Virus record (IMG/VR): IMGVR_UViG_3300043445_000096
Span: 1-44,965 of that record
Origin: a virus
DNA: 44,965 nucleotides
Strand: one strand, 5' to 3'
Of the stretch, positions 2,799 to 43,947 are shown piece after piece. A program made the translations under genes and the position numbers. Under the pieces are notes generated by a model. It did not search any database. It saw nothing but the letters and a program-made list of their open reading frames with translations, and was not told the origin of the DNA. Numbering within the stretch: the stretch's first letter is position 1; every line of letters begins with the position of its first letter.

Positions 2799-2804
2799 CT
2801 GGCC

Positions 2805-3275
2805 ATGGTCCGCCGCCACTGCCCCTCCACCTTCGACCTGCTGAGCTGGGAGCCGCCCTTGGTGGAGCCCCGGTTCGAGCAGGCGCACATCACGAATGCC
2901 GCCCACCTGTATGGTCAGCTGTGCCTGGCGATGAGCCAGGTTCTGCGGGATGCGCAGGCGGCCGGGATGGACCGGGAAGCGGTGGCGGCCGCCATGAGCG
3001 CCTTCCTGGAGGAAGAGTACACGCTGGACCGGCTGAACGCGGACACAGCCCAGAGCAAGACCAGCCACGTCATCAACGCGGTCCGGCTGTTCGCCATGAT
3101 CCGGGCGACACGCGATCCCCGGATCATCCAGATGATCGCCGAGCCGATCGGATACGCGGTCATCGACAGGAAGTGGCTGCCAGCCGTCGAGGCGACAATC
3201 CTGGAGCTGCAGGAAGCGGAAATCGCCGAACGCAAGCGCATTGCCCGCGACAAGGCGCGGAGGGCTATGGGATGA
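2805..3275 (+). CDS. Conserved early protein of unknown function
   Basis: This 156-aa, mostly helical protein has no signal or membrane segment. The N-terminus has a short FDLLSWEPP motif. The C-terminal third is a long charged helix (LELQEAEIAERKRIARDKARRAMG). Its stop overlaps the transposase start by ATGA, so the two are probably translationally coupled. That makes an accessory role in transposition or its control plausible, but I recognise no domain. The 7-bp gap to the GapR-like gene puts it in the same transcript. Confidence 0.75.
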   Translation: MVRRHCPSTFDLLSWEPPLVEPRFEQAHITNAAHLYGQLCLAMSQVLRDAQAAGMDREAVAAAMSAFLEEEYTLDRLNADTAQSKTSHVINAVRLFAMIRATRDPRIIQMIAEPIGYAVIDRKWLPAVEATILELQEAEIAERKRIARDKARRAMG

Positions 3276-19008: not shown

Positions 19009-20520
19009 ATGGCAAGAACATCAGCCATCTTCACGGAATTCGCGGGCATCGCCGATGGCCGCGACATCACCCGCGGCTTCATCCCGGCGCAATCCCTGGA
19101 GCCGCAGGACGCCATCCTGCTGGCCAAGGGCGGGGACTATCGGACCTATGAATGGGTGCTGCAGGACGACCAGGTCCAGAGCTGCCTGCAGCAGCGACGC
19201 CTGGCGGTCGTTGCCTGCGAATGGGAGGTGGAGCCGGGGGGGCCGTCCCGTCGCGACCGCAAGGCGGCGGAGAGCCTGAAAGCCCAGCTGGCAGCGATCG
19301 AGTGGGACCGCACGACAGCCAAGATGCATTACGGCGTCTTCTACGGCTATGCGGTCGGCGAATGCATCTGGGCGCGCGACGGCGCGGAGATCGTGCTGGA
19401 TCGGATCAAGGTCCGGAAGCAGCGCCGCTTCCGCTTCGACGACCAGGGCCGTCTGCGCCTGCGTCTGCCGGACCATCCCTTCGACGGGGTGCCGGTACCG
19501 GATCGGAAGTTCTGGTGGTTCAACACTGGCGCCGACAACGACGATGACCCGTACGGCCTTGGCCTGGCGCACTGGCTGTACTGGCCTGTCTTCTTCAAGC
19601 GCAATGGCATCAAGCTCTGGCTGCGCTTCCTGGACAAGTTCAGCACACCCACCGTGGTCGGCAAGCACCCCCAGGGCATGTCCGAGGCGGAGCGGCAGGA
19701 GCTGCTGCGGACGGCGATGTCCGTCAGCTCGGCCTCGGCCGTCGTCGTCCCGCAGGATACAGTCCTGGAACTGCTGGAGGCGACCCGCAGCGGGTCTGTG
19801 GACGCCGGATCCTTCCATCAGTCCATGGATGCGGCGATCGCCAAGATCATCCTGTCCCAGACGATGACCACCGACAACGGATCATCGCGCTCGCAGGCTG
19901 AGGTCCACGCAGGCGTGGCCAAGGATGTCATAAAGTCGGATGCCGACCTCCTGTGCCAGAGCTTCAACGCCGGTCCCGCGCGTTGGCTGACCGAGTGGAA
20001 CTACCCCGGCGCTGCCCCACCCCGGGTATGGCGCCGGAACGATGACGAACCGGACCTGAAGCCGCAGGCAGACCGCGATGCCGTGCTGTTCGCGATGGGG
20101 TACAAGCCGACCCCGGATTACATCCGGACAACCTACGGCGACGGGTTCGAGCCGCGCGAGACGGGCTCTCGCCCGCCGGCTCAGGCCCCCCTTGGACCGG
20201 GGGCAGATCAGCCGGCGGCTGTTGCCACTGGGGACGATGGGCGGGCCGATCCGTCATTTGCCGAGCCGGAGGAGACCGCTGTCCGGATCATCGCCGAGAA
20301 GCTGGCCGCCGTGGCGGACACGCAGATCGAGGTGATGGTGGCGGCCGTGCGCGCGGCCCTGGATGAGGTCGAGCGCATCGAGGATCTGCCGGAACGGCTG
20401 TTGGCCCTGTTGGAGGGTGTGGACACCAACGGGCTTGGGCAGGTCCTTGCCGACGCTCTGGTCCTGGCCGAGCTGGCAGGGCGCGGGGAGGTGATGGACC
20501 AGACCCGGGGGACGCCGTGA
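19009..20520 (+). CDS. Portal protein (DUF935, Mu gp29-like)
   Basis: The protein has 503 aa. Features of the DUF935 portal family are visible: SLEPQDAILLAKGGDYRTYEW near the start, DDQVQSCLQQRRLAVVACEWEVEPGG, HYGVFYGYAVGECIW, and WWFNTGADNDDDPYGLGLAHWLYWPVFFKRNGIKLW. The portal is the 12-fold ring through which DNA enters and leaves the head. The C-terminal 120 residues are acidic and helical. It overlaps the gpF-like gene by GTGA. Confidence 0.92.
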   Translation: MARTSAIFTEFAGIADGRDITRGFIPAQSLEPQDAILLAKGGDYRTYEWVLQDDQVQSCLQQRRLAVVACEWEVEPGGPSRRDRKAAESLKAQLAAIEWDRTTAKMHYGVFYGYAVGECIWARDGAEIVLDRIKVRKQRRFRFDDQGRLRLRLPDHPFDGVPVPDRKFWWFNTGADNDDDPYGLGLAHWLYWPVFFKRNGIKLWLRFLDKFSTPTVVGKHPQGMSEAERQELLRTAMSVSSASAVVVPQDTVLELLEATRSGSVDAGSFHQSMDAAIAKIILSQTMTTDNGSSRSQAEVHAGVAKDVIKSDADLLCQSFNAGPARWLTEWNYPGAAPPRVWRRNDDEPDLKPQADRDAVLFAMGYKPTPDYIRTTYGDGFEPRETGSRPPAQAPLGPGADQPAAVATGDDGRADPSFAEPEETAVRIIAEKLAAVADTQIEVMVAAVRAALDEVERIEDLPERLLALLEGVDTNGLGQVLADALVLAELAGRGEVMDQTRGTP

Positions 20521-21797
20521 CGGTCGAATGGGGCAGCCTTTCCTTCGCGGAGGCCATCGACTACCTGCGGCAGAAGGTGAACCTGCCCACCGAGCGCTGG
20601 ACCGATCTGCGCGAAGGACAGCACGCCCGCGCCTTCACCATCGCAGGTGCCACCCGGGACGAGCTTTTGGCCGATTTCCGGGCGACCGTCGAGCGTGTGG
20701 TCCGGGGAGAGCTGACGCTGGAGGACTTCCGCAAGGAGTTCGACCGGATCGTCGCGGCCCATGGCTGGACCTACAAGGGTGGGCGCGGGTGGCGCAGCAA
20801 GGTGATCTACGAGACGAACCTGAACACCGCCTACCAGGCCGGCCGGTACAAGCAGATGACCGACCCCGACGTCCTGGCTGTCCGACCGTTCTGGCAGTAC
20901 GACCATTCTGACTGGGTGCGACACCCGCGGCTGCAGCACAAGGCATGGGACGGCATGGTGCTGCACTGGGACGATCCGTTCTGGGATACCCACTATCCGC
21001 CGAACGGCTGGGGGTGCCAGTGCAGGATCCAGCCGCTGAGCGCACGCGAGCTGGCCGCCCTGGGCAAGGACGGGCCCGACCCGTCACCGCCGGTGAAGGA
21101 AGTGGCGCACCGGCTGCGCACCTCCAGCGGCGATGTGACGGTCAGGGTGCCGGAGGGGCTGGACCCCGGTTGGGCCTACAATGTCGGCGAAGCCGCCTGG
21201 GGCCGGCCGGAGCATGCCAAGCGGATCGTCGACGGGAACGAGTCCGTCTGGGAGCCGCTGCCCACCTGGGGCCAGGTGGACGTTGATCCCGCGACGCTGC
21301 CCCGGGTGCCCGCCGACCTTCCGGTGGCGAGGCTGGGGCCCACTGCCCGAGAGGGAGACGAGATCGCGCTGCGGGGAAACCTGCGGGCCGCGATCGGCGG
21401 CGATGAGGCGGTGTTCGTCGATCCGACCGGCACGCACATCCGGCTGACCCAAGCCATCGCCGACCACGTGTTGGAGGCGCCGAAGCGTTGGACCGGGCGG
21501 GATGCCTGGTGGCCCTTCATGCCCGAGACGATAGCCGATCCGGCGGAGGTCTGGGTCGAGTTCAGCCGAAACCGGGAGACCGGCCGCATCGGACTGGTCC
21601 GCCGCTACGTCAAGCTGGTGACAGTGGGGAAGGACAAGTCCATACCCGTGATCGTCCATGCCGAGGGAGGCTTCTGGATCGGTGTCACCGCGTTCTTCGG
21701 GAAGGCCGACTACCTGGCCAAGCTGCGGCGGGGCCGCCTGGTCTGGCGCCGCGGGGACCTGCGGACAAGGGCAGCGGGACCCGTGGCTGTGGGCTAG
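20517..21797 (+). CDS. gpF-like head morphogenesis protein with C-terminal PBECR2-like nuclease domain
   Basis: The protein has 426 aa from a GTG start. Residues 60-175 form the Mu F-like/SPP1 gp7-type minor head domain, with RSKVIYETNLNTAYQAGRY and HYPPNGWGCQCR at the zinc-like end. Residues about 280-412 resemble the PBECR2 nuclease domain of the barnase-EndoU-colicin-RelE group: VFVDPTGTHIRLTQ, a WWPFMPETIADPAEVW block, then VRRYVKLV...IPVIVHAEGGFW. Minor head proteins of this type are packaged in the virion, so the nuclease-like tail could be ejected with DNA. That is inference; catalytic residues cannot be assigned from sequence alone. Confidence 0.85.
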   Translation: MTVEWGSLSFAEAIDYLRQKVNLPTERWTDLREGQHARAFTIAGATRDELLADFRATVERVVRGELTLEDFRKEFDRIVAAHGWTYKGGRGWRSKVIYETNLNTAYQAGRYKQMTDPDVLAVRPFWQYDHSDWVRHPRLQHKAWDGMVLHWDDPFWDTHYPPNGWGCQCRIQPLSARELAALGKDGPDPSPPVKEVAHRLRTSSGDVTVRVPEGLDPGWAYNVGEAAWGRPEHAKRIVDGNESVWEPLPTWGQVDVDPATLPRVPADLPVARLGPTAREGDEIALRGNLRAAIGGDEAVFVDPTGTHIRLTQAIADHVLEAPKRWTGRDAWWPFMPETIADPAEVWVEFSRNRETGRIGLVRRYVKLVTVGKDKSIPVIVHAEGGFWIGVTAFFGKADYLAKLRRGRLVWRRGDLRTRAAGPVAVG

Positions 21798-22132
21798 CGT
21801 CGCCCGCATGCGCGCCCCCGCTCGGGGGCCGGTCATCGGCATGCGGACCTACCGTCCCCCTGCATGTCCAATATGGCCCCATATCCCGCCGTCGGCAAGA
21901 AGGCCCATCAGACGGCCGCTGAATGGGGGCAGCGGTGGGAGCCCCGGAGAAGTACCCCCAAGGTGCCCCACCCCTATCCAGGGGGCGTTACCGGTGCGTT
22001 ACCGGCGCTATCGTTCGGCCCGCCCGGAAACGTCCCGCGGAGTGGCCTTCCACCCCTCCGCTCCGGGGGGGTAACCCGTGGCATGGGATGGTTCATTCTG
22101 CCGGCCTGATCCAACCGAGGCCGTGCCGAGAC
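21798..22132 (+). other. Non-coding gap between gpF and protease genes
   Basis: This 335-bp stretch has no convincing gene. An 81-codon frame (21,864-22,109) has poor coding character and no ribosome site. It contains a CCCCCG/CGGGGG hairpin near 21,816-21,829, two GCGTTACCGG words at 21,986-22,006 and a GGGGGGTAACCCG at 22,066-22,078. In an otherwise packed late operon it may hold a promoter or a processing site for the capsid genes, or be the remnant of a lost gene. Confidence 0.5.
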
Positions 22133-23215
22133 ATGTCCAGGAAGACCATCGAGATCTTCGCCGCCGGATCGCATACGGCGATCGACGGCAAGACCTACGA
22201 CTTCAGCGAGGCCGATCTTGCGACCGCAGCGGCGGCCTATGATCCGGCCGTGCATGAGGCCCCGATCGTCGTAGGGCACCCCAAGACCGACTTGCCCGCC
22301 TATGGCTGGGTTGCAGGGCTGCGCGCCGATGGCGGGCGCCTGCTGGCCGATGTGGACCAGGTCGACCCCAGCTTCGCGGAACTGGTGGCCCAGGGGCGGT
22401 TCAAGAAGGTGAGCGCCAGCTTCTACCTGCCGGGGGCGGCGGGCAACCCCACACCCGGCAAGCTGCACCTGCGGCACGTCGGCTTCCTTGGCGCCCAGCC
22501 ACCGGCCGTGAAGGGCCTGAAGCAGGCCAGCTTCGCCGAGGCGGGGGAGGGTGTGGTCGAGTTCGGCGACTGGGGTGAACGGAGTCTCGCCCGTCTGCTC
22601 CGGAGCATGCGTGAGTGGTTGATCGGCCGCTACGGCCAGGAGGAGGCCGACAAGGCGCTGCCCACCTGGGAGCTGGACATGGTCACCGAGGCGGCCCTGT
22701 CGGACGATGCGCGGCACGTCGGCTTCTCCGAGCCGGCCGCCGATCCGGCCGGAAACGCCGACGCCAAGGCGGCCGAGCTGGCGCAGCGCGAGGCCGACCT
22801 GGCCGCCCGTGAGGCGCGGATGGTCGCCCGGGAGGCGGATGCCGCCGCGGCCCGGGCCACCCAGCGGGCAGCCGAGAATGGAGCCTTTCTGGAGGAGCAG
22901 ATCGGCGCCGGCCGGGTCCTGCCCGGCGAAAAGGCGGAACTGGTCGGCTTCATGTCCGCGCTGGATGAGGCCGGTGTCGTCAGTTTCGCGGAGGGTGGCG
23001 TCAAGCGCCCGATCGACATCTTCAAGGGCTTCGTCGCCGCGCTGCCCGCCCGTGTCCCCATGGGCGAGGTCGCCGGGGGTGAGACGGTCGATTTCGCCGA
23101 CCCGGACGCCATCACCGCCGCCGCGGAGAGGCACCAGGCCGAGCAGGAGAAAGCCGGCCGGACGGTCACCTTCCAGGCCGCCATCCGCCATGTCATGAAG
23201 GGAGCAAGCGCGTGA
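22133..23215 (+). CDS. Prohead protease/scaffold (Mu gpI-like)
   Basis: The protein has 360 aa from ATG 22,133 (weak ribosome site; the frame runs open to 21,923). The N-terminal part (EIFAAGSHTAIDGKTYDFSE...APIVVGHPKTDLPAYGWV...FKKVSASFYLPG) matches the protease domain of Mu I-type proteins. Residues 205-265 form an Ala/Glu/Arg coiled coil typical of the fused scaffold. It would shape and then clear the prohead before DNA packaging. It is followed directly, by GTGA overlap, by DUF2190 and then the capsid gene, the usual order. Confidence 0.72.
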   Translation: MSRKTIEIFAAGSHTAIDGKTYDFSEADLATAAAAYDPAVHEAPIVVGHPKTDLPAYGWVAGLRADGGRLLADVDQVDPSFAELVAQGRFKKVSASFYLPGAAGNPTPGKLHLRHVGFLGAQPPAVKGLKQASFAEAGEGVVEFGDWGERSLARLLRSMREWLIGRYGQEEADKALPTWELDMVTEAALSDDARHVGFSEPAADPAGNADAKAAELAQREADLAAREARMVAREADAAAARATQRAAENGAFLEEQIGAGRVLPGEKAELVGFMSALDEAGVVSFAEGGVKRPIDIFKGFVAALPARVPMGEVAGGETVDFADPDAITAAAERHQAEQEKAGRTVTFQAAIRHVMKGASA

Positions 23216-23628
23216 AGCACATCGTGAAAACCTACCGGGCGGGCGGCGCCGTCGGCGAGAACCGCATCGTCACCTTCGGTTCCGGTGACCAGGTGGTGGT
23301 GCAGGCCGCCGCCGCGGCCGCAGCCCTGATCGGCATCTGCTGCCATCCCGGCGGCGCCGCTGTCGGCGAGCGTCTGGACGTGGTCCGGGCCGGCATCGCC
23401 GATGTCGTCTACGGCGGCAACGTCACCCGCGGCGATCTTCTGACCGCTGACGCGGAAGGCCGGGCCGTGGCCGCCACGCGGCATGCCCACGCCGAGAACG
23501 CGGCCGCGGCCTATGCCCAGAACGCCACTACCGCGGCCGCGTCTGTCGTCCGCGTCATCGGCACGGCCGAGGTCTCCGGCGTTGCCGGCGACATCGGCCA
23601 AGTCCTGATCGCGCCCGGCCTGGCGTAA
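23212..23628 (+). CDS. DUF2190 family protein, probable capsid decoration
   Basis: The protein has 138 aa, GTG start overlapping the protease stop. It is Ala/Gly/Val-rich and beta-predicted: RIVTFGSGDQVVVQAAAAAAALIGICC, GERLDVVRAGIADVVYGGNVTRGDLLTAD. This is the DUF2190 pattern of small beta-barrel proteins encoded beside major capsid genes and thought to stabilise the head. It is separated by 62 bp from the capsid gene. Confidence 0.78.
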   Translation: MKHIVKTYRAGGAVGENRIVTFGSGDQVVVQAAAAAAALIGICCHPGGAAVGERLDVVRAGIADVVYGGNVTRGDLLTADAEGRAVAATRHAHAENAAAAYAQNATTAAASVVRVIGTAEVSGVAGDIGQVLIAPGLA

Positions 23629-23690
23629 CCACCAGACACCCCGGTGACCGCGATCGCGGCGGGGACACGACAAGCTGAAGGATCACGCCC

Positions 23691-24650
23691 ATGAGCGGCA
23701 CGCCCTTTTCCGTCAACCCGAGCCTGGTCGCCCTCTCCGTCAAGTACCGCAACCCGGCGGTCAGTCTGATCGCGGACCTGGTCCTTCCCCGGGTGCCGGT
23801 GAACGTCAAGGAGTTCAAGTACAAGGAGTACGACCTGGCCCAGGGCATCACCGTGCCCAATACCTTCGTCGGCCGCCGCGGCCAGCCGAACGAGGTCAGC
23901 TTCGCGTCGACCGAGCGCACGGATCTGGCCGAGGATTACGGCCTGGACGATCCCGTGCCGCAGGATGACATCGACCAGGCGGCGGCAAGCGAGACCAACG
24001 GCGGCATCGTGGTCGACCCGCTGATGGACAGCACCGAGTACCTGACCGACCTGATCCTGCTGGATCGCGAGATCCGGACCGCCGGGTTGATCTTCAACCC
24101 CGCCACCTACAAGGCCGGCTACAAGGTCCAGCTGGCCGGCACCGACCAGTTCAGCCACAAGGACAGCGATGCCCTGGGCGTTTTGAACGACGCGCTGGAC
24201 GCCACCTTGATCTACCGGCCGAACACGCTGGTCATCGGCCAGGCCGCCTGGACCAAGCTGCGGGCCAACCGGTCGATGCTGGCCGCGCTCCAGCCCAACG
24301 TGGCCGATCCGAAGGGCCTTCTGACCCGCGAGCAGGTGGCGGAGCTGCTGGAGATCGACCGCGTCATCGTCGGCAGCAGCTTCGTCAACCAGGCGAAGAA
24401 GGGTCAGAACCCCGTGGCCCTGCGTACCTGGGGCAAGCACATCGCCCTGCTGCACATCAATCCGCAGGCGAACAACAACCGGGGAATCACCTTCGGCTTC
24501 ACCGCCCAGTACGGCACCCGCATCGCCGGCAGCCAGCCCGACAGCAAGATCGGCCTGCGTGGCGGCCAGCGCGTGCGTGTCGGCGAGACGGTGAAGGAGA
24601 AGGTGATCGCGCCCGAGCTGGGCTACTTCATCCAGGACGCGGTGGCCTGA
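23691..24650 (+). CDS. Major capsid protein
   Basis: The protein has 319 aa, with the size and position of the HK97-type major head protein. Visible features are an N-terminal VSLIADLVLPRVPVNVKEFKYKEYD arm (family-typical 'Y...D...P.' opening), a PDW-like central region with LVIGQAAWTKLRANRSM, and a beta-rich C-terminus with GKHIALLHINPQ. It is of the kind found in B3-like and alphaproteobacterial Mu-like phages rather than close to Mu T. It has no cleavage prodomain, consistent with a separate scaffold. Confidence 0.85.
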   Translation: MSGTPFSVNPSLVALSVKYRNPAVSLIADLVLPRVPVNVKEFKYKEYDLAQGITVPNTFVGRRGQPNEVSFASTERTDLAEDYGLDDPVPQDDIDQAAASETNGGIVVDPLMDSTEYLTDLILLDREIRTAGLIFNPATYKAGYKVQLAGTDQFSHKDSDALGVLNDALDATLIYRPNTLVIGQAAWTKLRANRSMLAALQPNVADPKGLLTREQVAELLEIDRVIVGSSFVNQAKKGQNPVALRTWGKHIALLHINPQANNNRGITFGFTAQYGTRIAGSQPDSKIGLRGGQRVRVGETVKEKVIAPELGYFIQDAVA

Positions 24651-24651
24651 C

Positions 24652-25119
24652 ATGCGGATCCGCGCCACATCCGACATCCGCTGCGATGGCGTGCAGATCC
24701 GGCCCGGCGACGAGCTGGAGCTGGACGACGCCATCGCCGTCAAGCTGATCGCCGGCGGTTCCGCCCAGCCGGTCTTGGACGGTCGGGCGGAACCGAGCGA
24801 GGTCAAGGTCAACCGCGCGATCGACACGCTGGCCAAGTTCGTGGGCTGCACGATCGACGACATATGGCGGGCCTTGGCCCCGCTGCACGGACCCGCCGGC
24901 GCTCTCTCCGCCGCCCCGCCGGCGGCAGGAGGGGGCGGCCATCCGGGTCTGGCTGCCCCCTTCACCCCCGATACGCCTGAGCTGGCAGGACCGGAGGCCA
25001 CAGGGGCCGAAGGCAACGCCGGGGCCGGGGAGCAGGGTGAGCCTGCCCCCGGTGCCCCGCCGAAGGGCCGGCGGGGCGCCAAGGCCGTTACCGGCGCCGC
25101 CGGGGAGGCGAAGCAGTAA
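24652..25119 (+). CDS. Head-region protein with disordered tail
   Basis: The protein has 155 aa. The first about 80 residues look folded (RIRATSDIRCDGVQIRPGDELELDDAIAVKLIAGGSA), a small beta/alpha unit like proteins encoded after capsid genes in siphophages. The rest is Gly/Pro/Ala-rich and probably disordered. It starts 1 bp after the capsid stop. A head-completion or decoration role is possible from position. Confidence 0.6.
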   Translation: MRIRATSDIRCDGVQIRPGDELELDDAIAVKLIAGGSAQPVLDGRAEPSEVKVNRAIDTLAKFVGCTIDDIWRALAPLHGPAGALSAAPPAAGGGGHPGLAAPFTPDTPELAGPEATGAEGNAGAGEQGEPAPGAPPKGRRGAKAVTGAAGEAKQ

Positions 25120-25197
25120 CGAGATACCCGCGGCCGGTCTGGTACGCCTCGCAAGGGCCCCAGCACCCAATGGGAACGCGAAGCAGCCGCTTCAGAC

Positions 25198-25229
25198 GTA
25201 GGGGTTCAGCCCGCCGGCCTACCTTTTTT
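25198..25229 (+). terminator. Possible terminator after the head genes
   Basis: GTAGG (25,198-25,202) and CCTAC (25,218-25,222) bracket a GGG...CCC inner pairing and are followed by T6 at 25,224-25,229. The stem is moderate. The rest of 25,120-25,395 holds a second fold, AAGCCCC (25,233-25,239) with GGGGCTT (25,262-25,268) and inner CCCGG/CCGGG. It looks like a structured leader for the next gene; no clear promoter is visible. Confidence 0.5.
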
Positions 25230-25395
25230 CCCAAGCCCCTTACCCGGACTGACCGCCGGGTGGGGCTTGGGGCCGTGGAGGAGACGGCCACTGCCCCGGC
25301 GCCACTCCAGATAGGGAACAGGGGGTGGAGGTGCGGAGCGGCCTGCTGGCCTGGGAACCAGCGAAGAAAGCGCCCGATAGACCCAGGAGAATGTC

Positions 25396-25596
25396 GTGCA
25401 GATCCAGGACAAGGGCCAGCCCCTCACCGACGAAGAGCGCCAGGTCGCGCTGGAGACGCTGGAGAGCCTGAGCGCCATGGTGCGCGGCTTCTTCGGCGTC
25501 CTGCCGCCGTCGCGTGAGATCTCCGTCGCCCAGACCCAGTTCGAGACCGCCTTCCTTTGGGGCGCGCACGCCGTGCGGCAGGCACCCGGGGCATGA
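25396..25596 (+). CDS. Acb2/Tad1-like anti-CBASS small protein
   Basis: The protein has 66 aa from GTG 25,396 with AGGAG six bases upstream; a TAG at 25,378 closes the frame above. The sequence follows the Acb2/Tad1 domain pattern: a helix ALETLESLSAMVRGFFGV, then the signature PPSRE at 37-41 leading into a second helix SVAQTQFETAFLWGAHAV (family consensus PPSREkSLAlTkLEEAmfWa). Acb2 proteins of transposable and other phages bind cyclic di- and trinucleotides and so silence CBASS and Thoeris-like immunity. That function is by family; nucleotide-binding residues are not verified here. It sits in the late operon before DUF1320, overlapping it by ATGA. Confidence 0.72.
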   Translation: MQIQDKGQPLTDEERQVALETLESLSAMVRGFFGVLPPSREISVAQTQFETAFLWGAHAVRQAPGA

Positions 25597-26027
25597 CCTA
25601 CGCCACGCTCCAGGACTTGGTCGATCGCTTCGGGACCGCCGAGGTCATGAAGTTCTGCGACCGCGACCGGGACCAGGTCGCCGACCCGGACCTTGTCGCG
25701 CGCCTGCTGGAGGACGCCGGGGCCATCGTCGACGGCTATGTGGGCGGGCGGTACAGCTTGCCCCTGGCCGAGGCCGACCCGCTGCTGAAGCGCCTGGTCT
25801 GCGACCTGGTGCGGGCCGATTACCATGGGTCCAGCCTGGAATCGGGTGGCCCGATCGACGCGGCCAAGCGGCAGGCCCTGGCCACCCTGCGCGACATCGC
25901 CGACGGGCGGGTGGAGTTGACCCGGACGACGTCTGCCGACGGTGCCGCCGTCCGACCGGGTGGCGGCGGTTTGTCCGCTGGTCCTGCTCCGGTCTTCGGC
26001 GACCATGCTCTCGGGGGGTTCGTCTGA
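25593..26027 (+). CDS. DUF1320 family head-tail protein (Mu gp36-like)
   Basis: The protein has 144 aa from ATG 25,593, overlapping the Acb2-like stop. The N-terminus (TYATLQDLVDRFGTAEVMKFCDRD, then ARLLEDAGAIVDGYVGGRYSLPL and LVCDLVRADYH) is a good DUF1320 match. This family is the head-tail connector (gp36) of Mu-like phages. The last 35 residues are Gly/Pro-rich. Confidence 0.88.
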   Translation: MTYATLQDLVDRFGTAEVMKFCDRDRDQVADPDLVARLLEDAGAIVDGYVGGRYSLPLAEADPLLKRLVCDLVRADYHGSSLESGGPIDAAKRQALATLRDIADGRVELTRTTSADGAAVRPGGGGLSAGPAPVFGDHALGGFV

Positions 26028-27237: not shown

Positions 27238-28167
27238 ATGGCATTCACCTGGAAAGAGAAGCTGGTGCTGCTGAAGACGGAGGCCACGTACGGCACCAAC
27301 AGCACCCCCACGGCTGCGGCGAACGCGGTCAAGACCGTCAGCGCCCAGATCACGCCGGTGGAAGGCGACGAGGTGGTGCTGGAGATCGACAACCAGGCCA
27401 TGGGCGCGCCGAAGGCCGAGCTGGCGGGCATCCACGTCCAGGTCAGTTTTGACGTCCCGCTTTCCGGCAGCGGGACCGCCGGCACCGCCCCGTCCTGGGG
27501 CGCCGTCCTGCGGGCCTGCGGCTTCGCGGAGACCGTCACCGTCGGCACCGACGTGGCCTATACCCCCATCAACACCGGCCATGAGTCGGCGAGCCTGATC
27601 TTCCAGATGAAGGGGGTGATCCACACGATCGTCGGTTTCCGCGCCAAGGCGGCGCTGCGGGCGGCGGCGAAGAATTACCTGTTCCTGCAGGTTTCCGGGC
27701 GCGGGCTGCTGCGCCCCATCACCAGCGGTCCGGGCAGCCTGCCGGCGGCGACCTATACCGGCGCCCGTGAGCTGCTGGTCGGCAGCGCCAATACCGACTT
27801 CAGCCTGGACGCAGCGACGCCCGGGCTGCAGGAGTTGACGGTCGACCTGGGCAATGAGCCCCAGGGCCGCTTCCTGGTGGGCCAGGAATCGATCGAGCTG
27901 CCCGACCCGGTGCCCGTGGGCACCGCCAACTTCGAGGACCCCGGCATGGCTTCCAAGGACTGGTTCGCCATTGCTGCGGCCGCCACGCCCGTCGCGATGT
28001 CCCTGGTCCACGGCACGGTCGCCGGCAACATCGTGGAGATCGCGGCCGACGCCGTGCAGCTGGGCCCGAAACTGGGCTACCAGGAGCAGGACCGTTATCG
28101 GCACTTCCAGGCGCCGCTGCGCTTCCTGCCCCACGCAAACGGCCCGCTGACGATCACGGTCCGCTGA
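27238..28167 (+). CDS. Major tail (tube) protein
   Basis: The protein has 309 aa, beta-rich. It opens KEKLVLLKTEATYGTNSTPTAAANAVKT, typical of siphoviral tail tube proteins ('...E..yGt.p....'). It is followed by repeated beta segments (VQVSFDVPLSGSGTAGTAPSWGAVLRACGF; YTPINTGHESASLIFQ). No sheath gene is found, so the tail is long and non-contractile. It is upstream of the tail chaperone genes, as expected. Confidence 0.85.
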   Translation: MAFTWKEKLVLLKTEATYGTNSTPTAAANAVKTVSAQITPVEGDEVVLEIDNQAMGAPKAELAGIHVQVSFDVPLSGSGTAGTAPSWGAVLRACGFAETVTVGTDVAYTPINTGHESASLIFQMKGVIHTIVGFRAKAALRAAAKNYLFLQVSGRGLLRPITSGPGSLPAATYTGARELLVGSANTDFSLDAATPGLQELTVDLGNEPQGRFLVGQESIELPDPVPVGTANFEDPGMASKDWFAIAAAATPVAMSLVHGTVAGNIVEIAADAVQLGPKLGYQEQDRYRHFQAPLRFLPHANGPLTITVR

Positions 28168-28282
28168 CAGGTTACGCTCACACGGGCCGCTGACACGGCC
28201 CGCCGACCTGCCGGGGCGTTACCCGCGCCCCGGCCCATCCCGCCCGGTAACGGGCACCATTCCCTGACCCAGGAGTCCGAAC
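28168..28282 (+). other. Intergenic hairpin region before tail chaperones
   Basis: CCGGGGCG and CGCCCCGG (about 28,210-28,231) form a GC-rich stem with a TTACC-containing loop. A second GGTAACG follows at 28,245. No T-run follows, so it is not a standard terminator. It may tune expression between the abundant tube protein and the scarce chaperones. Confidence 0.45.
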
Positions 28283-28660
28283 ATGCCGTCGATCCGCAAG
28301 GGGCGTGAACAGACCTATTCCTTCCCCGTGGATGTGAAGTGCCCCAACCCGCGCCTTCCCGGGCAGTTCATCACCGAGACCTTCAAGGCCGAGTTCCGGG
28401 CCCTGCCGACGTCGGAGAGCCGCGAGCTGGTCGCCGAAGCCGACAAGGCGCGAGACCAGGGGCGCAGCGGCGAAGCGATGGACCTGGACAAGAACATCCT
28501 CCGTGAAGTCGTGGTCGGCTGGGAGGGATTGGAGGAGGAGTTCAGCGCCGACATGCTGGAGGAGGCCATGGACAATCCCTTCTACCTGAACGGCCTGATG
28601 ACGGCCTATCGCAAGAGCCTGTCAGGCGAAGCCGTGCAACGGCGCGCCGGAAAAAACTGA
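28283..28660 (+). CDS. Tail assembly chaperone (gpG-type, frame 0)
   Basis: The protein has 125 aa with the phage tail assembly chaperone pattern: an N-terminal beta unit (YSFPVDVKCPNP...FKAEFRALPTSESREL), then DKNILREVVVGWEGLEEEFS and ENPFY-like NPFYLNGLMTAYRKS. CAGGAGT precedes the ATG. The gene ends GGA AAA AAC TGA, with a slippery heptamer just before the stop, so a fraction of ribosomes should continue into the next frame. It helps tape-measure folding before the tail tube assembles. Confidence 0.85.
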   Translation: MPSIRKGREQTYSFPVDVKCPNPRLPGQFITETFKAEFRALPTSESRELVAEADKARDQGRSGEAMDLDKNILREVVVGWEGLEEEFSADMLEEAMDNPFYLNGLMTAYRKSLSGEAVQRRAGKN

Positions 28661-29013
28661 CGGACGCCGTCGCCGCCTGGGCGGGTGACCGGGGCGGCGG
28701 CGGTGGAGACCTGACGGAGGATGCGCGGGCGTTGGGAATCGACCCCGCCACCCTGCCCGAGGCGGAAGAGCGGGTCGTGTGGGTCTGGCCCGAGAACTGG
28801 GCCGTCTTCCGCCTCTTCGTCGCCCTGTCGACGCAATGGCGGTGGTTCGGGATCTCGGGCTTGGGCGGTGGGGTGGTTCGGCGCACCGGCCTTGATTATG
28901 CCGCGGTCCCGGCCCTCGCCCAGGCATTCGGTGTGAGCCTGACCGAAGAGACCTGGACCAAGCTACGCCTGTGCGAGGGCGCCGCCATGGAGGTCTGGGA
29001 CGCGCAGAACTGA
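28283..29013 (+). CDS. Tail chaperone -1 frameshift product (gpGT-type, DUF1799 part)
   Basis: Expected join is 28,283-28,657 with 28,657-29,013, giving 243 aa. The -1 frame is open through the slip site and continues LTDAVAAWAGDRGGGGG, then DUF1799-like ENWAVFRLFVALSTQWRWFG...YAAVPALAQAFGV. The downstream part has no ATG in frame and no well-spaced ribosome site; a TTG at 28,732 is the only upstream start. This mirrors lambda G/GT, where the ratio of short to long product sets tail assembly. The frameshift is predicted, not shown. Confidence 0.78.
28651..28657 (+). other. Programmed -1 frameshift slippery site A AAA AAC
   Basis: In frame 0 the heptamer reads A AAA AAC (X XXY YYZ), followed at once by the TGA stop of the chaperone gene. 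The -1 frame is open on both sides. Downstream sequence is GC-rich (GGGGCGGCGGCGG) and could form the stimulating structure, and the adjacent stop adds a pause. Confidence 0.78.
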
Positions 29014-29027
29014 CGAAGGAGCGGGAC

Positions 29028-32000
29028 GTGGCCGGCGACATGAAGCTGAGCATCCGGGTATCGGCGGACGCCAAGCCGGCGGCTGCCGAGCTGGGGCGGC
29101 TGCGGGACGAGGCCAATTCCGCGGCCCGCGAGATCGCGCAATCGGGCGCGACGGCAGCGCGGGGCCTGACGGAGATCTCCGCCTCCGCCCGGTCGGTGGC
29201 CGCGGCGACAAACGACGTGGCTGGGCGGATTGACCGGGCGACCGGGGTGCTGCGGGACGCCACCGGCCGGGATCGGGCGGCCGACAGCGCGGCCTATGGC
29301 CGGCAGATGAACGAGCTGCGCAGCGCCATAGACCCGTTGTTCGCAGCCGGGCAGCGCTACAAGGAAGGCTTGCGCCAGATCGCGGAGGCCGAGCGCCTTG
29401 GCGCCGTCACAGCCACCCAGGCCGGTGCCGCCAGGGCACGGCTGAAGGAGGCCTTCGCAGCCCATGCCGCCGTGTTGTCCGGCCATGCCGCCCGCACCCG
29501 GGAAGCAGCACTGGCGGAACAAGCGGGCGCCCGGGCAGCAGCCGAGGCCGCCGCCGCCCAGGCCCAGGCCGCGGCAGCCGCCCAGGCGCTGCGGGAGCGC
29601 TATGTGCCCCTGGAGGCGACCAAGCGGCAATATGTGGCCGCGATCAAAGAGGTGGCCGCCGCAGAGCGTGCCGGTACCCTGACCGCCGCGGAGGCGGCCG
29701 CGGCACGGCAGCGGCTGAAGGAGGGGTTCGCGGCCGCGGCACAGCAGGCCCGGGGTGCGGCCGGCGGGTTCCAGCTGGCGGGGCATCAGGCGGCCAACCT
29801 TTCCTACCAGATCCAGGACATCGGCGTGCAGCTGAGCATGGGGACCTCGCCCTTCATCATCCTCGCCCAACAGGGGCCCCAGATCGTCAGCGCCCTGGGC
29901 GGGGTGAAGGAGACGATCGAGGCGGTGAAGGCAGGGTTGGCCAGCCTTTGGGCGACGATAATCGCGAATCCGATCACTGCACTGGCGGCTTTAGCGGGGG
30001 CGGCGGCGCTGACAATGCTGTTGTTCCGTGACAGCGCCTTCGACGTCGAGAAGGCGCTGACCGATGCTTCGGATGCCATGGACCGGTACACCCGGTTCAT
30101 GCGCTTGGCCAACGTGCTGTCCGGAGAGGCCGCGCGGCTGGCGCGGGCCAGGGCGGAGGATGAGCGCAAGGTCTCCATCGAGAAGGCGCGCCAGGCTGTG
30201 CAAGAAACGTCAGCTCAGCTGGCGGCGGCGCGCCGGGCAGCCGCAGGCGCGGCGATGGTGGCATCCAGGCCCATCTTCCTGCCTGGGGGGGGCCGGATCG
30301 GGGGTCCTGGCACAGGTAAAGGGCCGTCGGAGGAGGAGCTTAAGAGGCTACAGCAGGCGGCCGACGACGCAAAGATCAAGCTTGCGGAGTTGGAACAGCA
30401 GGCCCGGTCTCTCGCCGGTGGGATGCAATTCGCCGCCATTTCGGCCCGCCCCCTGTCGGAGGTGATCGCGGGCATTGCGGCCGATCAGGCATGGATCCAG
30501 GCGGCACGCCAAGGTGAGGCCGCGCTCCGCGACCTGGCGCGCCAGCAGGCCATCAATACCGCCGAAACGGAGGCGTTCCGGGCGGCTTATGCTGCGGCTG
30601 CCCGTGACGGCATGGTCTCAGCCCGGGAACTGGCCGATATCACGCGCTTGGTGGCCGAAGCCGGAGATCTCGCCGCCGAGCGGTTCGACCTTACCATCCT
30701 GGCCAACGGCATGAATCAAGCGGAAGCTGCCGCCGCGGCCTTCGCCGATCGGATGGAGGATGTGGACCGGTTCCTGGCAGAAGCTGCGGGCGGTGTAACG
30801 GCGGCCGAACGGGCGCTGCGGCCCTATGCCACGCAGATCGAAGCGTTGGAGGACCTGAAAAAGCGGGAGGGGCTGACGACAGATCAGCTTGCCTCGGTCG
30901 AAGCGAAGCTAAACCAGGTCCGCCTCGCCGGCGTGGTCGCCATGGAGGATGCCGAGGCGGCCCTGCGCCTTCAGAACGCGGAGCGGCAGCGGGAGATCGA
31001 GTTGTTGGAGCGGCGCAACGGGCTGCTGGAACGGCAGGCGGCCGGCGGCCGTCAGGGAGCCGTTGCGGCTGTGCAGCTGGCCCGTCTGGACGTGCAGACC
31101 CGCATCGATGACCAGGTGCGCCGGCGGGAGCGTGAGCTGCAGGAGGTCCGCCGGCAGACAGCCGATCTGACGGAAGAGCAGATCACGGTCGAGCTGGCGC
31201 GGTACCGGGCGGCGCTGGAGACCAATGCGGCGCTGGAGGAGGAGATCCGGCTGCGCGCCCGCGCAGCCCGGGCGGCGGACAGCTTCGGCGCCCTGACGGC
31301 GTCCCTGGTCGAGGGGGACATCACCGACATCTCCGCAGCCCTTGGGTCCTTCACTACCGACTTGGCGGACCTGCGCGCCGAGACCGGCAGCTGGGGCGAG
31401 GCCATAGCGAAGCTCGGCGAGGAGATGCTGAACAGTGCCGAGGCTGGTAACGCCCTGGGCAACATCCTGGGTAAAGTGTTCGGCCGGTCGGCCGCCCAGC
31501 AGCGCAACGCTCAGATTGGCGCCAGCATCGGCTCCACCGCCGCCACCCTCCTGGGACTGCCGCCCGGGCTCGGCAGCTTCTTCGGCAACATCGTCGGCGG
31601 GCTGTTCGGACGCGGGCGGGCCGGCGAGCGGGCTGATCGCTTGGCCGTGCAGCGTGCCGAGGACCTGAACCGGCTGGCGCAGTCCATGGACGCCTTCATC
31701 GGCGCGGCCGGTGGGGCCGATTCCGCGGTGCGCGCGTTGGACCAGGAATTCGCCTCCCTTTCCGCCGAGGCCCGCCGCCTGGGCCGCGATACGGCGGATC
31801 TGGAGGATGCGTACCGCCGGCGGCGGCAGCAGGCGGTCGCAGACGCCAACAACGCCCTGTCGGCCGAGCTGGGTCGATTGACAGGCGATGTCAGCCTGCT
31901 TTGGCAGGCCTTGCGCCGGGAGAACACGGCTCTGATCGACCAGGCCCGGGCGGATGAGGCCGACCTGGCCCTGGCCCGGCGGGTCGCGGCGGAACGGGAG

Positions 32001-34586
32001 CGCGAGTGGCTGGATCAGCGCACGACCGCTGAGTTGGAGGCCCTGGGCGCCGTCGTTGACGCGGCGACGCTGATCCGCGCCCGCATGCGCGACGCGGTCG
32101 CCGCCATCTCCACCCTACTGGACCGGCAGCTGGACCAGGTGCGCGATGCCGCCCAGGTGGTGCGCCAGTCCGCCCGTGACTGGCGGGACCTTCAGCGGAG
32201 CTTGCGCGATGCCGCGGCCGCGCTGCGCCTGAACGAGGCGGTATCGACCCTCACCCCCCAGCAGCGCCTGGCGGAAAGCAGGACGCAGTATGAGACGGCA
32301 CGTGCCGCCGCCGCCCGGGGGGACCTTGGGGCGGGGCGGCAAGTAGCGGGGGCAGCGCAGTCCTACCTGGAGGCGCTGCGCGCCTGGACAGGCGGCAGCC
32401 AGTACGAGGCTGTGTTCAGCCAGGTGCAGAACGACCTGCTGGACCTGGGTGTCAGCGCAGGGGCACTCGCCGGTGCCGCCGAGTACCAGGCCGAGCTGCT
32501 GGAGCAACAGGTCCGGCTTTTGGAGGCGATCCGGGACAATCTGGCAGGCCAGGTGGATGAGGAGCTGCTGCAACAGCAGCTGGCCGCGCTCTCTGTCGTG
32601 CAGGGGCTTCTGGCCGAAAGCAACGATCTGTCGCTCGGGCTGGGGACGTCCCTGACCGGTGATCAGCAGCGCCTGCGTGACGCGGTGACATCCGTCATCC
32701 GGGAGGTGCGGACCAGCCTCGACTCTGGGCTCAACATCGTCGATGCGCCTGCGATCACTCGGGACCTGGCGATCCTGGAGGCCGGTCTGGTCGGGAACAA
32801 TTCCGCCGAGGCGGAGCGGTACCGCGCCGCTATCGCGGTGCTGCGGCAAACGACGGCCGACGGCCTGATCACCGCGGCCGAGGCCGGGCCGACCCGGGAG
32901 GCCCTTTCGGTGCTGGGCGGAATCTTCGCCGGCGGCGCCGCGCAAAACACAGACGCGGTGACATCGGTCATCCGCGAGGTCAGGGCGAGCCTGGACGCGG
33001 GTCTGAACATTGTGGATGCCCCCGGGATCACCCGAGACCTGGCGATCCTGGAGGCCGGTCTGGTCGGGAACAATTCCGCCGAGGCGGAGCGGTACCGCGC
33101 CGCTATCGCGGTGCTGCGGCAGACGACGGCCGACGGGCTGATCACCGCGGCGGAGGCGGGGCCGACGCGGGATGCCCTGGCAGTGCTGGGTGGCCTGCTG
33201 GCCAGCGTCGGCGGCGGCACGACGGCGGCGGTCAATAGCCAGACCGGGCAGATCATCCGTCTGGGTGACCTGTCGGCCGAGCAGCGGGACGCCGTCCTGG
33301 CCGGGCTTGGGCTGTCCCAGACAACGGCGCAGCTGGTCGCCACGCAGACGGGGGCGATCCTGACCGGAACCGCCCTGACCGACACCTTGACGCGGATATC
33401 GGCACAAGACGTCCAGCTGTCGCAGCGGATGATGGAGATCCTGCAAGGCTCGACCGGGCTGCAGGTCGATATGATCCGGGCCATCGTGGAGACCGGGGCG
33501 GATATCGAGAACGCCCTACGCGAGTATCTGGAACAGGCCCGGGTCCGTGCGGAGGAGGAGGCGCGCCAGCGCGCCGAACAGGCCGCCCGGGCGGCAGGGC
33601 AGGCGCAGGTGGACGCAGCGGGAGCCGCCGCGCGGTCGACCGCCAACGACCTGAGCCAGCGCAGTCGGTCGATCCGCACGCAGGAGACGACGCGCAACGA
33701 TCAGGCCCTGGATCAGCTGGTCAGCCTGGCGACGGGTGCTGTGCGGGCGGAGTATTCCGACCGGGGCGAGGGACAGCGCGATCGGGCCGACGCCCTGCGT
33801 GGCGTCGTTTCCGGCTATGCCCAGCAGCTGCAGAGCGTGCTGGGTGGCCAGGTCACAGGCGACCTGCGCATGATTGTCTCATCCAAGTATGGACTGCGTG
33901 GAGAGCTGGGGGGCGAGCGCTGGCAGGGCGGCGTGAACGACACCGCGGCCTTCGTCGCCTGGGCGGTCCGTACCATGGCAGGCCAGATGACCGGCTTGTC
34001 TGATGTAGCCCGCAACGCGGTCGGGCGCGCCAACTGGTCGGACATCCCCTCCGCCATGGACGGGCTGGCCAGGGCGGTTCGCGGCGCCCAGCTCGGCCTG
34101 CCGGCCTATGCCGGCGGCGGTCGGGTAGTCGGGCCCGGCGGCGGGACCAGCGACGACGTGCTCGCCTGGCTGAGCAACGGCGAGCATGTAATGCGCGCCG
34201 CTGTCGCCAATCGGTACGGCCACGACGTGCTGGACCAGCTCAACGCCGGCGACCTTCGGGCGGCCTACGTCCTGGCGGAGCGCAAGGGTCTGGTCCCCGC
34301 CGCGCCGGCCTTCGCCGATGGCGGAGCGGTGACCGCGCCGCCGATGAGCGTTCCTGCACCGCCACCGGTGCCGCGCATCAGGCTGGCGGCTCGCGGCGGC
34401 ACCGACGATGCCCGGCTGGTGGATGTGCTGCGCCAGGAGCTGCGGGAGCTGGTCCGTGAGGCGGCGGAGGGCAACGACGACCAGGCCGAGCGCGACCGCA
34501 GGTCCCAGCGTCTGCTGACCCGGATCGCCGAGCTGCTGGAGCGGATGGACGCCAGGGCGGGCCGGACGGAGGCCACCGGGACATGA
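29028..34586 (+). CDS. Tail tape measure protein
   Basis: The protein has 1,852 aa from GTG 29,028, with AAGGAG six bases upstream; ATG 29,040 is the alternative. It has long Ala/Glu/Arg coiled coils and the tape-measure motif AYQIQDIG-like SYQIQDIGVQLSMGTSPFII at about 258-277. Hydrophobic helices follow at about 304-333, and a C-terminal YAGGGRVVGPGGGTSDDVL...SNGEHVMR motif. It sets tail length and probably forms the channel for DNA entry. Residues about 1,218-1,308 and 1,309-1,399 are a 91-aa tandem duplication. Its stop overlaps the next ATG. Confidence 0.93.
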   Translation: MAGDMKLSIRVSADAKPAAAELGRLRDEANSAAREIAQSGATAARGLTEISASARSVAAATNDVAGRIDRATGVLRDATGRDRAADSAAYGRQMNELRSAIDPLFAAGQRYKEGLRQIAEAERLGAVTATQAGAARARLKEAFAAHAAVLSGHAARTREAALAEQAGARAAAEAAAAQAQAAAAAQALRERYVPLEATKRQYVAAIKEVAAAERAGTLTAAEAAAARQRLKEGFAAAAQQARGAAGGFQLAGHQAANLSYQIQDIGVQLSMGTSPFIILAQQGPQIVSALGGVKETIEAVKAGLASLWATIIANPITALAALAGAAALTMLLFRDSAFDVEKALTDASDAMDRYTRFMRLANVLSGEAARLARARAEDERKVSIEKARQAVQETSAQLAAARRAAAGAAMVASRPIFLPGGGRIGGPGTGKGPSEEELKRLQQAADDAKIKLAELEQQARSLAGGMQFAAISARPLSEVIAGIAADQAWIQAARQGEAALRDLARQQAINTAETEAFRAAYAAAARDGMVSARELADITRLVAEAGDLAAERFDLTILANGMNQAEAAAAAFADRMEDVDRFLAEAAGGVTAAERALRPYATQIEALEDLKKREGLTTDQLASVEAKLNQVRLAGVVAMEDAEAALRLQNAERQREIELLERRNGLLERQAAGGRQGAVAAVQLARLDVQTRIDDQVRRRERELQEVRRQTADLTEEQITVELARYRAALETNAALEEEIRLRARAARAADSFGALTASLVEGDITDISAALGSFTTDLADLRAETGSWGEAIAKLGEEMLNSAEAGNALGNILGKVFGRSAAQQRNAQIGASIGSTAATLLGLPPGLGSFFGNIVGGLFGRGRAGERADRLAVQRAEDLNRLAQSMDAFIGAAGGADSAVRALDQEFASLSAEARRLGRDTADLEDAYRRRRQQAVADANNALSAELGRLTGDVSLLWQALRRENTALIDQARADEADLALARRVAAEREREWLDQRTTAELEALGAVVDAATLIRARMRDAVAAISTLLDRQLDQVRDAAQVVRQSARDWRDLQRSLRDAAAALRLNEAVSTLTPQQRLAESRTQYETARAAAARGDLGAGRQVAGAAQSYLEALRAWTGGSQYEAVFSQVQNDLLDLGVSAGALAGAAEYQAELLEQQVRLLEAIRDNLAGQVDEELLQQQLAALSVVQGLLAESNDLSLGLGTSLTGDQQRLRDAVTSVIREVRTSLDSGLNIVDAPAITRDLAILEAGLVGNNSAEAERYRAAIAVLRQTTADGLITAAEAGPTREALSVLGGIFAGGAAQNTDAVTSVIREVRASLDAGLNIVDAPGITRDLAILEAGLVGNNSAEAERYRAAIAVLRQTTADGLITAAEAGPTRDALAVLGGLLASVGGGTTAAVNSQTGQIIRLGDLSAEQRDAVLAGLGLSQTTAQLVATQTGAILTGTALTDTLTRISAQDVQLSQRMMEILQGSTGLQVDMIRAIVETGADIENALREYLEQARVRAEEEARQRAEQAARAAGQAQVDAAGAAARSTANDLSQRSRSIRTQETTRNDQALDQLVSLATGAVRAEYSDRGEGQRDRADALRGVVSGYAQQLQSVLGGQVTGDLRMIVSSKYGLRGELGGERWQGGVNDTAAFVAWAVRTMAGQMTGLSDVARNAVGRANWSDIPSAMDGLARAVRGAQLGLPAYAGGGRVVGPGGGTSDDVLAWLSNGEHVMRAAVANRYGHDVLDQLNAGDLRAAYVLAERKGLVPAAPAFADGGAVTAPPMSVPAPPPVPRIRLAARGGTDDARLVDVLRQELRELVREAAEGNDDQAERDRRSQRLLTRIAELLERMDARAGRTEATGT
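32679..33224 (+). repeat. Tandem 273-bp duplication inside the tape measure gene
   Basis: Two in-frame copies, each 273 bp (91 codons), start at 32,679 and 32,952 (both from GACGCGGTGACATC). Bases 32,763-32,848 are identical to 33,036-33,121 over 86 nt. The flanks differ at scattered, often third-codon, positions. This suggests a recent duplication or continuing gene conversion. Confidence 0.85.
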
Positions 34587-42768: not shown

Positions 42769-43947
42769 ATGAAACAGATCATCGCGGTCACCGCCATCAA
42801 TCTGAGAAGCATTCCCCAGCGGCTTTGGGTCTCCCTCTCCACCATCATCGCCGTTGCGCTGACCGTGGCGGTGCTGCTGGGCTTCCTTGCCATGGCGAAC
42901 GGGTTCCAGCAGACATTGAAGGGCACCGGCTCCGACGATGTCGCCATCCTGCTGCGCGGCGGGGCGGGGGCGGAGATCAACAGCGGCGTCAGCCGCGACC
43001 AGATGCGCCTTGTGGAGGAAGCGCCGGGCGTCGCCCGAACGGCGGAAGGCGCACCGCGGGTGTCGGGCGAGTTGTACATCGTCGTCGACGCGATCAAGCG
43101 CGCCACCGATACCAAGGCCAACATCGCCTTCCGCGGCATCGGGGCGGAGGGGATGGGCCTGCGCCAGGGTGTCTCCATCGTGCAGGGGCGGATGTTCGAG
43201 CCCGGGGCGGCGGAGATCGTCGTCGGGCGCAGCCTGATCCAGGAATTCGCCGGATTCGACCTGGGCAGCACGGTCAAGCTGGGCACAGCCACCTGGACCG
43301 TGGTCGGCGTGTTCGAGATGGACGGTTCGGTCTTCGAATCGGAGATCTGGGGCGATATCGGCGCGGTGCAGAGCCTGTTCCGCCGCACCAACAGCTTCCA
43401 GTCCATCCGCGTCGCCCTGGACGGGCCGGAGGCCTTCGCCGCCCTGAAGGCCTATCTGGCGGCGGACAGCCGGCTGAAACTGGATATCAAGACGGAGCGC
43501 CAGTACTTCTCCGAACAGGCGGCGGGGACCGGCGGGCTGATCCAGTCCCTGGGTTGGCCGCTGGCCATTCTGATGTCGGTGGGGGCGCTGGCCGGGGCAC
43601 TGAACACCATGTACAGCTCCGTCTCCTCCCGCACGGCGGAGATCGCGACCCTGCGCGCCATCGGCTTCGGCGGGTTCCCGGCCTTCGTCGGCACCCTGGT
43701 GGAAAGCCTGGTCCTGTCTGTGATCGGCGGGTTGGTGGGGGCGGGGCTGACCTGGGCGCTGTTCGACGGCTTCACCGCCAGCACCTTCGGCGGCAGCTTC
43801 ACCCAGGTGGTCTTCGCCTTCCAGCTCACCCCTGCCCTGGTGGTGACGGGCATGGTGCTGGCCGTGGTGGTCGGCCTGATCGGCGGCTTCTTCCCCGCTC
43901 TGCGCGCAGCAAGGGTGCCCCTGGTCGCGGCGTTCCAGAAGGTGTGA
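42769..43947 (+). CDS. FtsX-like ABC permease, second
   Basis: The protein has 392 aa with the same architecture: N-terminal helix (about 20-42), periplasmic domain with GVSRDQMRLVEEAPGVART, and C-terminal helices with SSRTAEIATLRAIGFGGFPAF. It begins 4 bp after the first permease. Two different permeases with one ATPase and one adaptor suggest an asymmetric complex exporting a peptide, lipid or other envelope molecule; the sequence does not reveal which. Confidence 0.9.
   Translation: MKQIIAVTAINLRSIPQRLWVSLSTIIAVALTVAVLLGFLAMANGFQQTLKGTGSDDVAILLRGGAGAEINSGVSRDQMRLVEEAPGVARTAEGAPRVSGELYIVVDAIKRATDTKANIAFRGIGAEGMGLRQGVSIVQGRMFEPGAAEIVVGRSLIQEFAGFDLGSTVKLGTATWTVVGVFEMDGSVFESEIWGDIGAVQSLFRRTNSFQSIRVALDGPEAFAALKAYLAADSRLKLDIKTERQYFSEQAAGTGGLIQSLGWPLAILMSVGALAGALNTMYSSVSSRTAEIATLRAIGFGGFPAFVGTLVESLVLSVIGGLVGAGLTWALFDGFTASTFGGSFTQVVFAFQLTPALVVTGMVLAVVVGLIGGFFPALRAARVPLVAAFQKV

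Follow-up and report, generated by a model that had tools for sequence, protein, structure and literature searches.

How does a phage that carries its two tail assembly chaperones in overlapping reading frames express the second one, if this frame lacks an ATG of its own? The question is raised by positions 28,283 to 29,013 of the IMG/VR virus record IMGVR_UViG_3300043445_000096, whose complete stretch of 44,965 nucleotides is referred to here as the window. An original prediction, made from the letters alone, had proposed that a -1 frameshift signal joins the two chaperones, and our comparison with homologues supports this proposal. Judged from sequence comparison, it is very probable that the site programs -1 ribosomal frameshifting and thereby yields a short chaperone G and a fused chaperone G-T, as in phage lambda. 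The anatomy of the site, the conservation of its slip motif together with an adjacent stop codon and a leucine codon, and selection on the structure downstream are directly supported by the data. The mechanism as such is long known, and the site in the window belongs to it, because G/G-T shifting as well as the stop adjacency in Burkholderia phage KL1 and Acinetobacter phage Loki have already been published. The new contribution is a family-wide rule, with statistics derived from the collected loci and with Escherichia phage T1 included, that the zero-frame stop directly follows the slip site.

Anatomy of the slip site

The first open reading frame (ORF), G, extends over 28283-28660 on the plus strand and encodes a zero-frame product of 125 amino acids. 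Its match to Pfam Phage_TAC_4 (PF08748; E 6.5e-7, 30 bits, above the curated cut-off of 21.1) assigns it to the tail assembly chaperones, and it also matches phrog_569 with E 2.7e-19. Its 3' end reads ...CGG CGC GCC GGA AAA AAC TGA. Hence the slippery heptamer A_AAA_AAC (28651-28657) is found in the G frame directly before the TGA (28658-28660), exactly as had been claimed; the stop, which had been placed within the slip complex, adjoins the heptamer and is not part of it. After a slip by -1, the reading would be ...AAA AAA CTG ACG GAC GCC... up to the TGA at 29011-29013, with a predicted junction peptide RRAGK-K-LTDAVAAW and a T part of 118 amino acids (28657-29013).

The -1 frame is open from 28507 to 29013, through the slip site and into the DUF1799 domain (PF08809, 28768-28992, E 2e-14; E 5.8e-13 for the 118-residue T part), as was proposed at the outset. 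The profile phrog_17368 aligns to G (weakly, E 0.021) and then to T (E 6.5e-4), in that order. The locus thus shows the arrangement of G/G-T systems, i.e. an overlapping pair of ORFs, the second in the -1 frame, between the tail tube and the tape measure genes. Searches for solved structures matching G or T by sequence gave none at E<=1. A comparison of the AlphaFold2 model of T (mean predicted local distance difference test score, pLDDT, of 85.7) with solved folds gave none at E<=0.001, and the best matches in a viral structure library were tape measure chaperones at E about 1e-3. Both chaperone ORFs are often labelled tail length tape measure protein (phrog_569, phrog_680, RefSeq), apparently by neighbourhood.

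Conservation of the heptamer

It must be mentioned that the presence of AAAAAAC alone is not significant, because the motif, with 0.49 copies expected, is found once when both strands of the 44,965 bases are considered, and 38 of 100 shuffled windows also contain at least one copy. Homologues were therefore judged by the phase and position of the heptamer, and it is these, not its mere presence, that carry the signal. The loci were gathered by the T (DUF1799) protein only, so that the heptamer had no part in finding them; a peptide-pattern scan for relatives of G gave none. The collection comprised 125 rows (30, 7, the best 80 of 112 relatives, 7 and the window itself), some of them on the same contig; a search with a T alignment added no contig to the 30 from the single-protein search, and its duplicates were left out of the count. 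Dereplication at 80% T identity left 75 representatives.

An in-frame A_AAA_AAC or G_GGA_AAC, with the zero frame open upstream and T as the -1 continuation, was present in 123 of the 125 loci. The other two (L096 and L136) begin inside T at contig ends and were excluded from later counts; in L114, whose contig starts there, just 19 zero-frame codons precede the heptamer, and L030 has two heptamers. Among the 75 dereplicated loci, 45 carry A_AAA_AAC and 30 carry G_GGA_AAC, without intermediates, and no other copy of either motif exists in frame among 7,418 G-frame codons. Both versions permit re-pairing of both tRNAs. On the T tree, the heptamer type switched about 14 times by parsimony, compared to about 24 times with shuffled labels. 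The same motif class, written RRRAAAC, was found in 24 of 26 named phages, which were hand-picked for diversity from database matches, plus T1. A conserved X_XXY_YYZ heptamer within the ORF overlap, as known from G/G-T systems, is thus found in this family as well. The original prediction had named independent initiation of the second frame combined with a non-conserved heptamer as the outcome that would speak against it, and the heptamer turned out to be conserved.

The six consecutive A residues in the window could also suggest slippage of the RNA polymerase, by which a mixed mRNA population would encode the fusion. Such slippage is excluded as a general mechanism by the G_GGA_AAC homologues, since GGGAAAC, found in 30 of the 75, has no run of more than three identical bases within the heptamer. 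Furthermore, the phase of the motif is strict relative to the reading frame, and six bases make a short run for this kind of slippage. We consider this explanation extremely improbable.

The adjacent stop codon and the invariant leucine

In 67 of the 75 loci a zero-frame stop follows the heptamer without any intervening codon (41 TGA, 15 TAA and 11 TAG). Among internal leucine codons of the T frame, only 99 of 792 (12.5%) would make a stop in that register; the naive binomial P is 2e-51 and, like the second binomial value of this analysis (2e-16), it treats the loci as independent and is hence too small. At 60% clustering the stop is still adjacent in 56 of 64 loci (P 4e-42). A stop directly 3' of the slip site, the hallmark of shifty stops, therefore occurs beyond chance. 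The first -1 codon encodes leucine in all 75 loci. This leucine is conserved independently of the stop, because it is also invariant in the eight loci without an adjacent stop (seven CTC and one CTT).

Codon choice points in the same direction. CTA, which gives TAA or TAG in the zero frame, is used at 26 of 75 slip sites versus 71 of 1,533 leucine codons elsewhere, an about sevenfold excess; where the GC content exceeds 60% (51 loci), the figures are 11 of 51 sites versus 34 of 1,051 leucine codons elsewhere. Among stop-bearing loci, the identity of the stop changed about 20 times on the T tree by parsimony while the stop was retained. Treated as a four-state character, the stop required 26 changes compared to about 31 with shuffled labels, a value as low as the lowest among 200 shuffles. 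Stop losses are scattered and not clustered, because the changes between stop and non-stop match those with shuffled labels (7 versus about 8). These patterns across the family indicate that the adjacent stop is clearly under selection. Its likelier role would be the immediate termination of G, by which opening of the hairpin further downstream would be left to shifted ribosomes alone; alternatively, a stop waiting in the A site may offer ribosomes another opportunity to slip.

The downstream structure

The sequence following the stop had been described as GC-rich, and indeed it folds into a strong hairpin at 28665-28705, separated from the heptamer by a 7-nt spacer. The segment 28663-28722 has a minimum free energy of -38.0 kcal/mol against a shuffle mean of -26.5 (z -3.6, with 1 of 200 shuffles as stable), and z is -2.2 when synonymous codons are shuffled. 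Over positions +12 to +62, the 75 loci gave a mean z of -1.32 +/- 0.21, versus -0.07 to -0.31 in four control windows. Shuffling of synonymous codons (74 loci, one being dropped) gave -1.06 +/- 0.18 at the site versus -0.08, -0.37 and -0.12 in controls, and exchanging one hairpin arm for the arm of a different locus reduced the stability at the site (z -0.82 to -0.85) but hardly in four control windows (+0.02 to -0.18). Selection on a downstream hairpin, as deduced from these comparisons, thus has family-wide statistical support. Main stems of at least 7 bp are predicted in 65 of the 75 loci and begin 3-8 nt past the heptamer in 44 of these 65. A stable structure about 5-9 nt past the heptamer, as in sites with a 3' RNA stimulator, is found in the window but in only part of the family. 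A search for known RNA families in 28200-29100 returned mir-2968 as the sole match, far below its gathering score (21.9 versus 70 bits, E 0.31) and at chance level, and a scan for promoters and terminators gave one terminator-like match on the minus strand, again at chance level.

The hairpin as such, the alternation between A- and G-type heptamers and the strictness of the stop adjacency go beyond what had been predicted.

Evidence against frameshifting and a possible own start of T

Several observations weigh against programmed frameshifting as the common route to T. The stop is not adjacent in 8 of 75 loci, in which it follows at distances of 3, 3, 9, 9, 21, 39, 60 and 75 nt. The downstream structure is not universal, with a synonymous z below -1.5 in 39% of 74 loci. 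Stems of at least 10 bp are present at 50 of 75 sites, yet control windows have them too, in 33-43 of 74-75 cases; because stem counts separate the site from the controls only weakly, we put the weight on the z-scores and the arm-swap test. Upstream of the heptamer, Shine-Dalgarno-like 4-mers are not enriched (fractions of 0.24-0.25 of the 75 loci versus 0.08-0.28 in controls), and an upstream Shine-Dalgarno stimulator of the dnaX and insertion sequence (IS) type is not indicated. According to the parts of a review used here (PMC5009743), E. coli ribosomes shift far less readily on A_AAA_AAC than on A_AAA_AAG, and the slippage rate may therefore be low. Finally, in the window a GGAGG (28716-28720) stands 11 nt ahead of a TTG (28732-28734), which could start T alone.

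This last point leads to a rival explanation, in which translation of T would initiate independently at TTG 28732 or at GTG 28777, perhaps coupled to the termination of G, and the heptamer would be incidental. The original prediction had stated that the second frame is without its own ATG. An ATG is indeed missing ahead of the domain, but the lack of a start does not extend to the two non-ATG candidates. A start codon combined with a Shine-Dalgarno-like 4-mer precedes the domain in 11 of 74 loci (L127, which has no QWR motif, was dropped from this test), and T is called as a separate ORF in 20 of 25 annotated named phages. However, in 13 of the 74 loci there is no ATG, GTG or TTG at all before the domain, and in 47 there is no ATG. 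No locus with upstream sequence lacks a heptamer of this class, and the invariant leucine is the first residue after the slip. Moreover, the structure model of T places a helix at residues 2-13, immediately after the slip, with a mean pLDDT of 93 for residues 1-10; a protein begun at TTG 28732 would start at residue 26 and would lose this predicted helix. Own initiation of T is hence regarded as very unlikely.

Proposed mechanism

Frameshifting in the window would proceed as follows. Most ribosomes would read GGA AAA AAC TGA and release the 125-residue G, while a few would slip back by one base on A_AAA_AAC, with tRNA-Lys and tRNA-Asn re-pairing one base upstream and with the hairpin at the mRNA entry site aiding the slippage. 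The shifted ribosomes would continue with CTG ACG GAC and on through the 118-residue T part, which would result in the G-T fusion. By analogy to lambda, many G and few G-T molecules would coat the tape measure protein, and T would recruit the tail tube subunit. Given the geometry of the ribosome, the spacing in the window is consistent with slippage at the step in which the heptamer occupies the P and A sites. For slippage itself, its rate and the roles of G and T we rely on what is described for lambda and in the sections of the review cited above (PMC5009743). A rate of 1-10% is expected. For a chaperone cluster of the HK97-like kind, measurements gave 6-7% frameshifting, as stated in the portion of that report drawn on here (PMC3711429).

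The selected stop makes it necessary to consider a variant of this mechanism, in which ribosomes would mostly translocate before they slip, so that the A site holds the stop and the P site tRNA-Asn, and in which the ratio of G to G-T depends on the supply of release factor. The selection on adjacency, with TGA, TAA and TAG alike, would be explained by such a shifty stop. In the window, however, the stem starts 13 nt past the first P-site base, counted for a heptamer that occupies the P and A sites, which by ribosome geometry fits the classical, earlier step, and the adjacent stop is missing in the eight loci mentioned above. Shifty stops are described in the consulted sections of PMC5009743, where zero-frame stops right after the site are also given for some bacterial dnaX genes. 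The UGAC of the window is, according to the same sections, a context disfavouring strong termination by RF2; nevertheless, contexts of weak termination are not favoured in the family, since TGAC is found at only 8 of the 41 TGA sites. Altogether, we regard the post-translocation variant as possible but not probable. Somewhat more tentative still is the broader proposal that in the Phage_TAC_4/DUF1799 family the heptamer and the stop form the selected unit: RRR-AAC-stop would act as a -1 shifty stop, the waiting stop would make a heptamer with weak activity in E. coli more slippery, and the chaperone ratio would thus sense the release-factor supply in the infected cell.

Relation to known systems and annotation

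The classical -1 frameshift reading places the site next to lambda, which, in the parts of the review used here, shares the gene order tail tube - G - T - tape measure and the -1 shift near the 3' end of G, by which two chaperones result from one gene (PMC5009743). In contrast, lambda shifts on G_GGA_AAG and its G stop follows 15 nt later, whereas the present family has RRRAAAC, the adjacent stop and the hairpin, and its G and T belong to the Phage_TAC_4 and DUF1799 families, respectively. In HK97, no in-frame RRRAAAC was seen. For annotated tail chaperones in the SEA-PHAGES training data of PRFect, the mean distance from slip site to stop is given as 26 nt (PMC10885494). Closer parallels are gp12/gp13 of Loki, where AAAAAAC lies immediately by the gp12 stop (PMC5313236), and gp18/gp19 of KL1, with the heptamer immediately beside the stop (PMC3483164). 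As presented in the excerpts available to us, both are single-genome predictions, and the likeness covers the slip site and the stop; nothing in these excerpts tests stop adjacency, codon choice or structure across a family. AAAAAAC and GGGAAAC were described for phiCbK and Colossus in the section used of PMC3556154. A stop directly 3' of the slip site is likewise known from prfB and from dnaX variants, as far as the review sections cover them (PMC5009743), but prfB shifts by +1 and autoregulates RF2, while the present family shifts by -1 and would thereby produce a structural chaperone.

Among the 24 named phages with RRRAAAC, the stop is adjacent in 23, and in MT836303 it follows 3 nt later. 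T1 (genes 40/39) has A_AAA_AAC TAA at 19180 followed by a DUF1799-related T part; its record lists two separate ORFs, and its hairpin is weaker (-15.9 kcal/mol for 50 nt). In TLS (tfmA/tfmS), A_AAA_AAC is directly followed by TAA and a DUF1799-related T part as well, and the frames are annotated as joined. The two phages without the heptamer, phiEB49 and phiKp_14 (GCA AAG GTC TAA in L177 near 1084 and CAA AAG AGT TAA in L180 near 1153), have an A_AAG tetramer one codon ahead of the stop in its place and keep the T-side leucine.

The claim that standard gene calling misses the second chaperone finds partial support in relatives, as two of the 25 annotated named-phage records (HK639 and YP10S2) omit T. 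Three others join the frames (Smarc2, TLS and Silvanus), and nearly all of the separately called T ORFs start downstream of the slip. The stop-adjacency rule, which we did not find in print in the open-licence PMC papers searched, can serve as a firm annotation guide for a large phage family in which T is mostly called separately; a single T query matched 645 of 50,697 phage records. T1 in laboratory E. coli would offer a simple natural test of termination versus -1 frameshifting, should slippage be influenced by the adjacent stop.

Other features of the window

Upstream of G lie the tail tube gene (27238-28167, plus strand, Pfam Phage_tube_2, E 9.8e-12) and a tail terminator gene. The tape measure ORF follows downstream on the same strand (28971-34586, listed from a GTG as candidate start, Pfam TMP_2, E 5.1e-13). 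Within it, at 32679-33190, there is a tandem duplication of 273 bp (1.9 copies, 88% match, each unit corresponding to about 91 residues), possibly the mark of a recently altered tail length. The tail is probably of the long, non-contractile type. Because of matches to a Mu-type transposase, portal, protein F and Gp36 at 2702-5335 and 19009-26027 of the virus record, the window looks like a Mu-like transposable phage, in which a Mu-like head module is combined with a tail module that carries Phage_TAC_4/DUF1799 chaperones. The ORF at 20517-21797 combines a Mu protein F-like head protein with a C-terminal PBECR2 nuclease-like domain (E 3.9e-18). Near the right end, at 42769-43947, a MacB/FtsX-like permease is encoded, which possibly represents flanking host DNA or a cargo gene.
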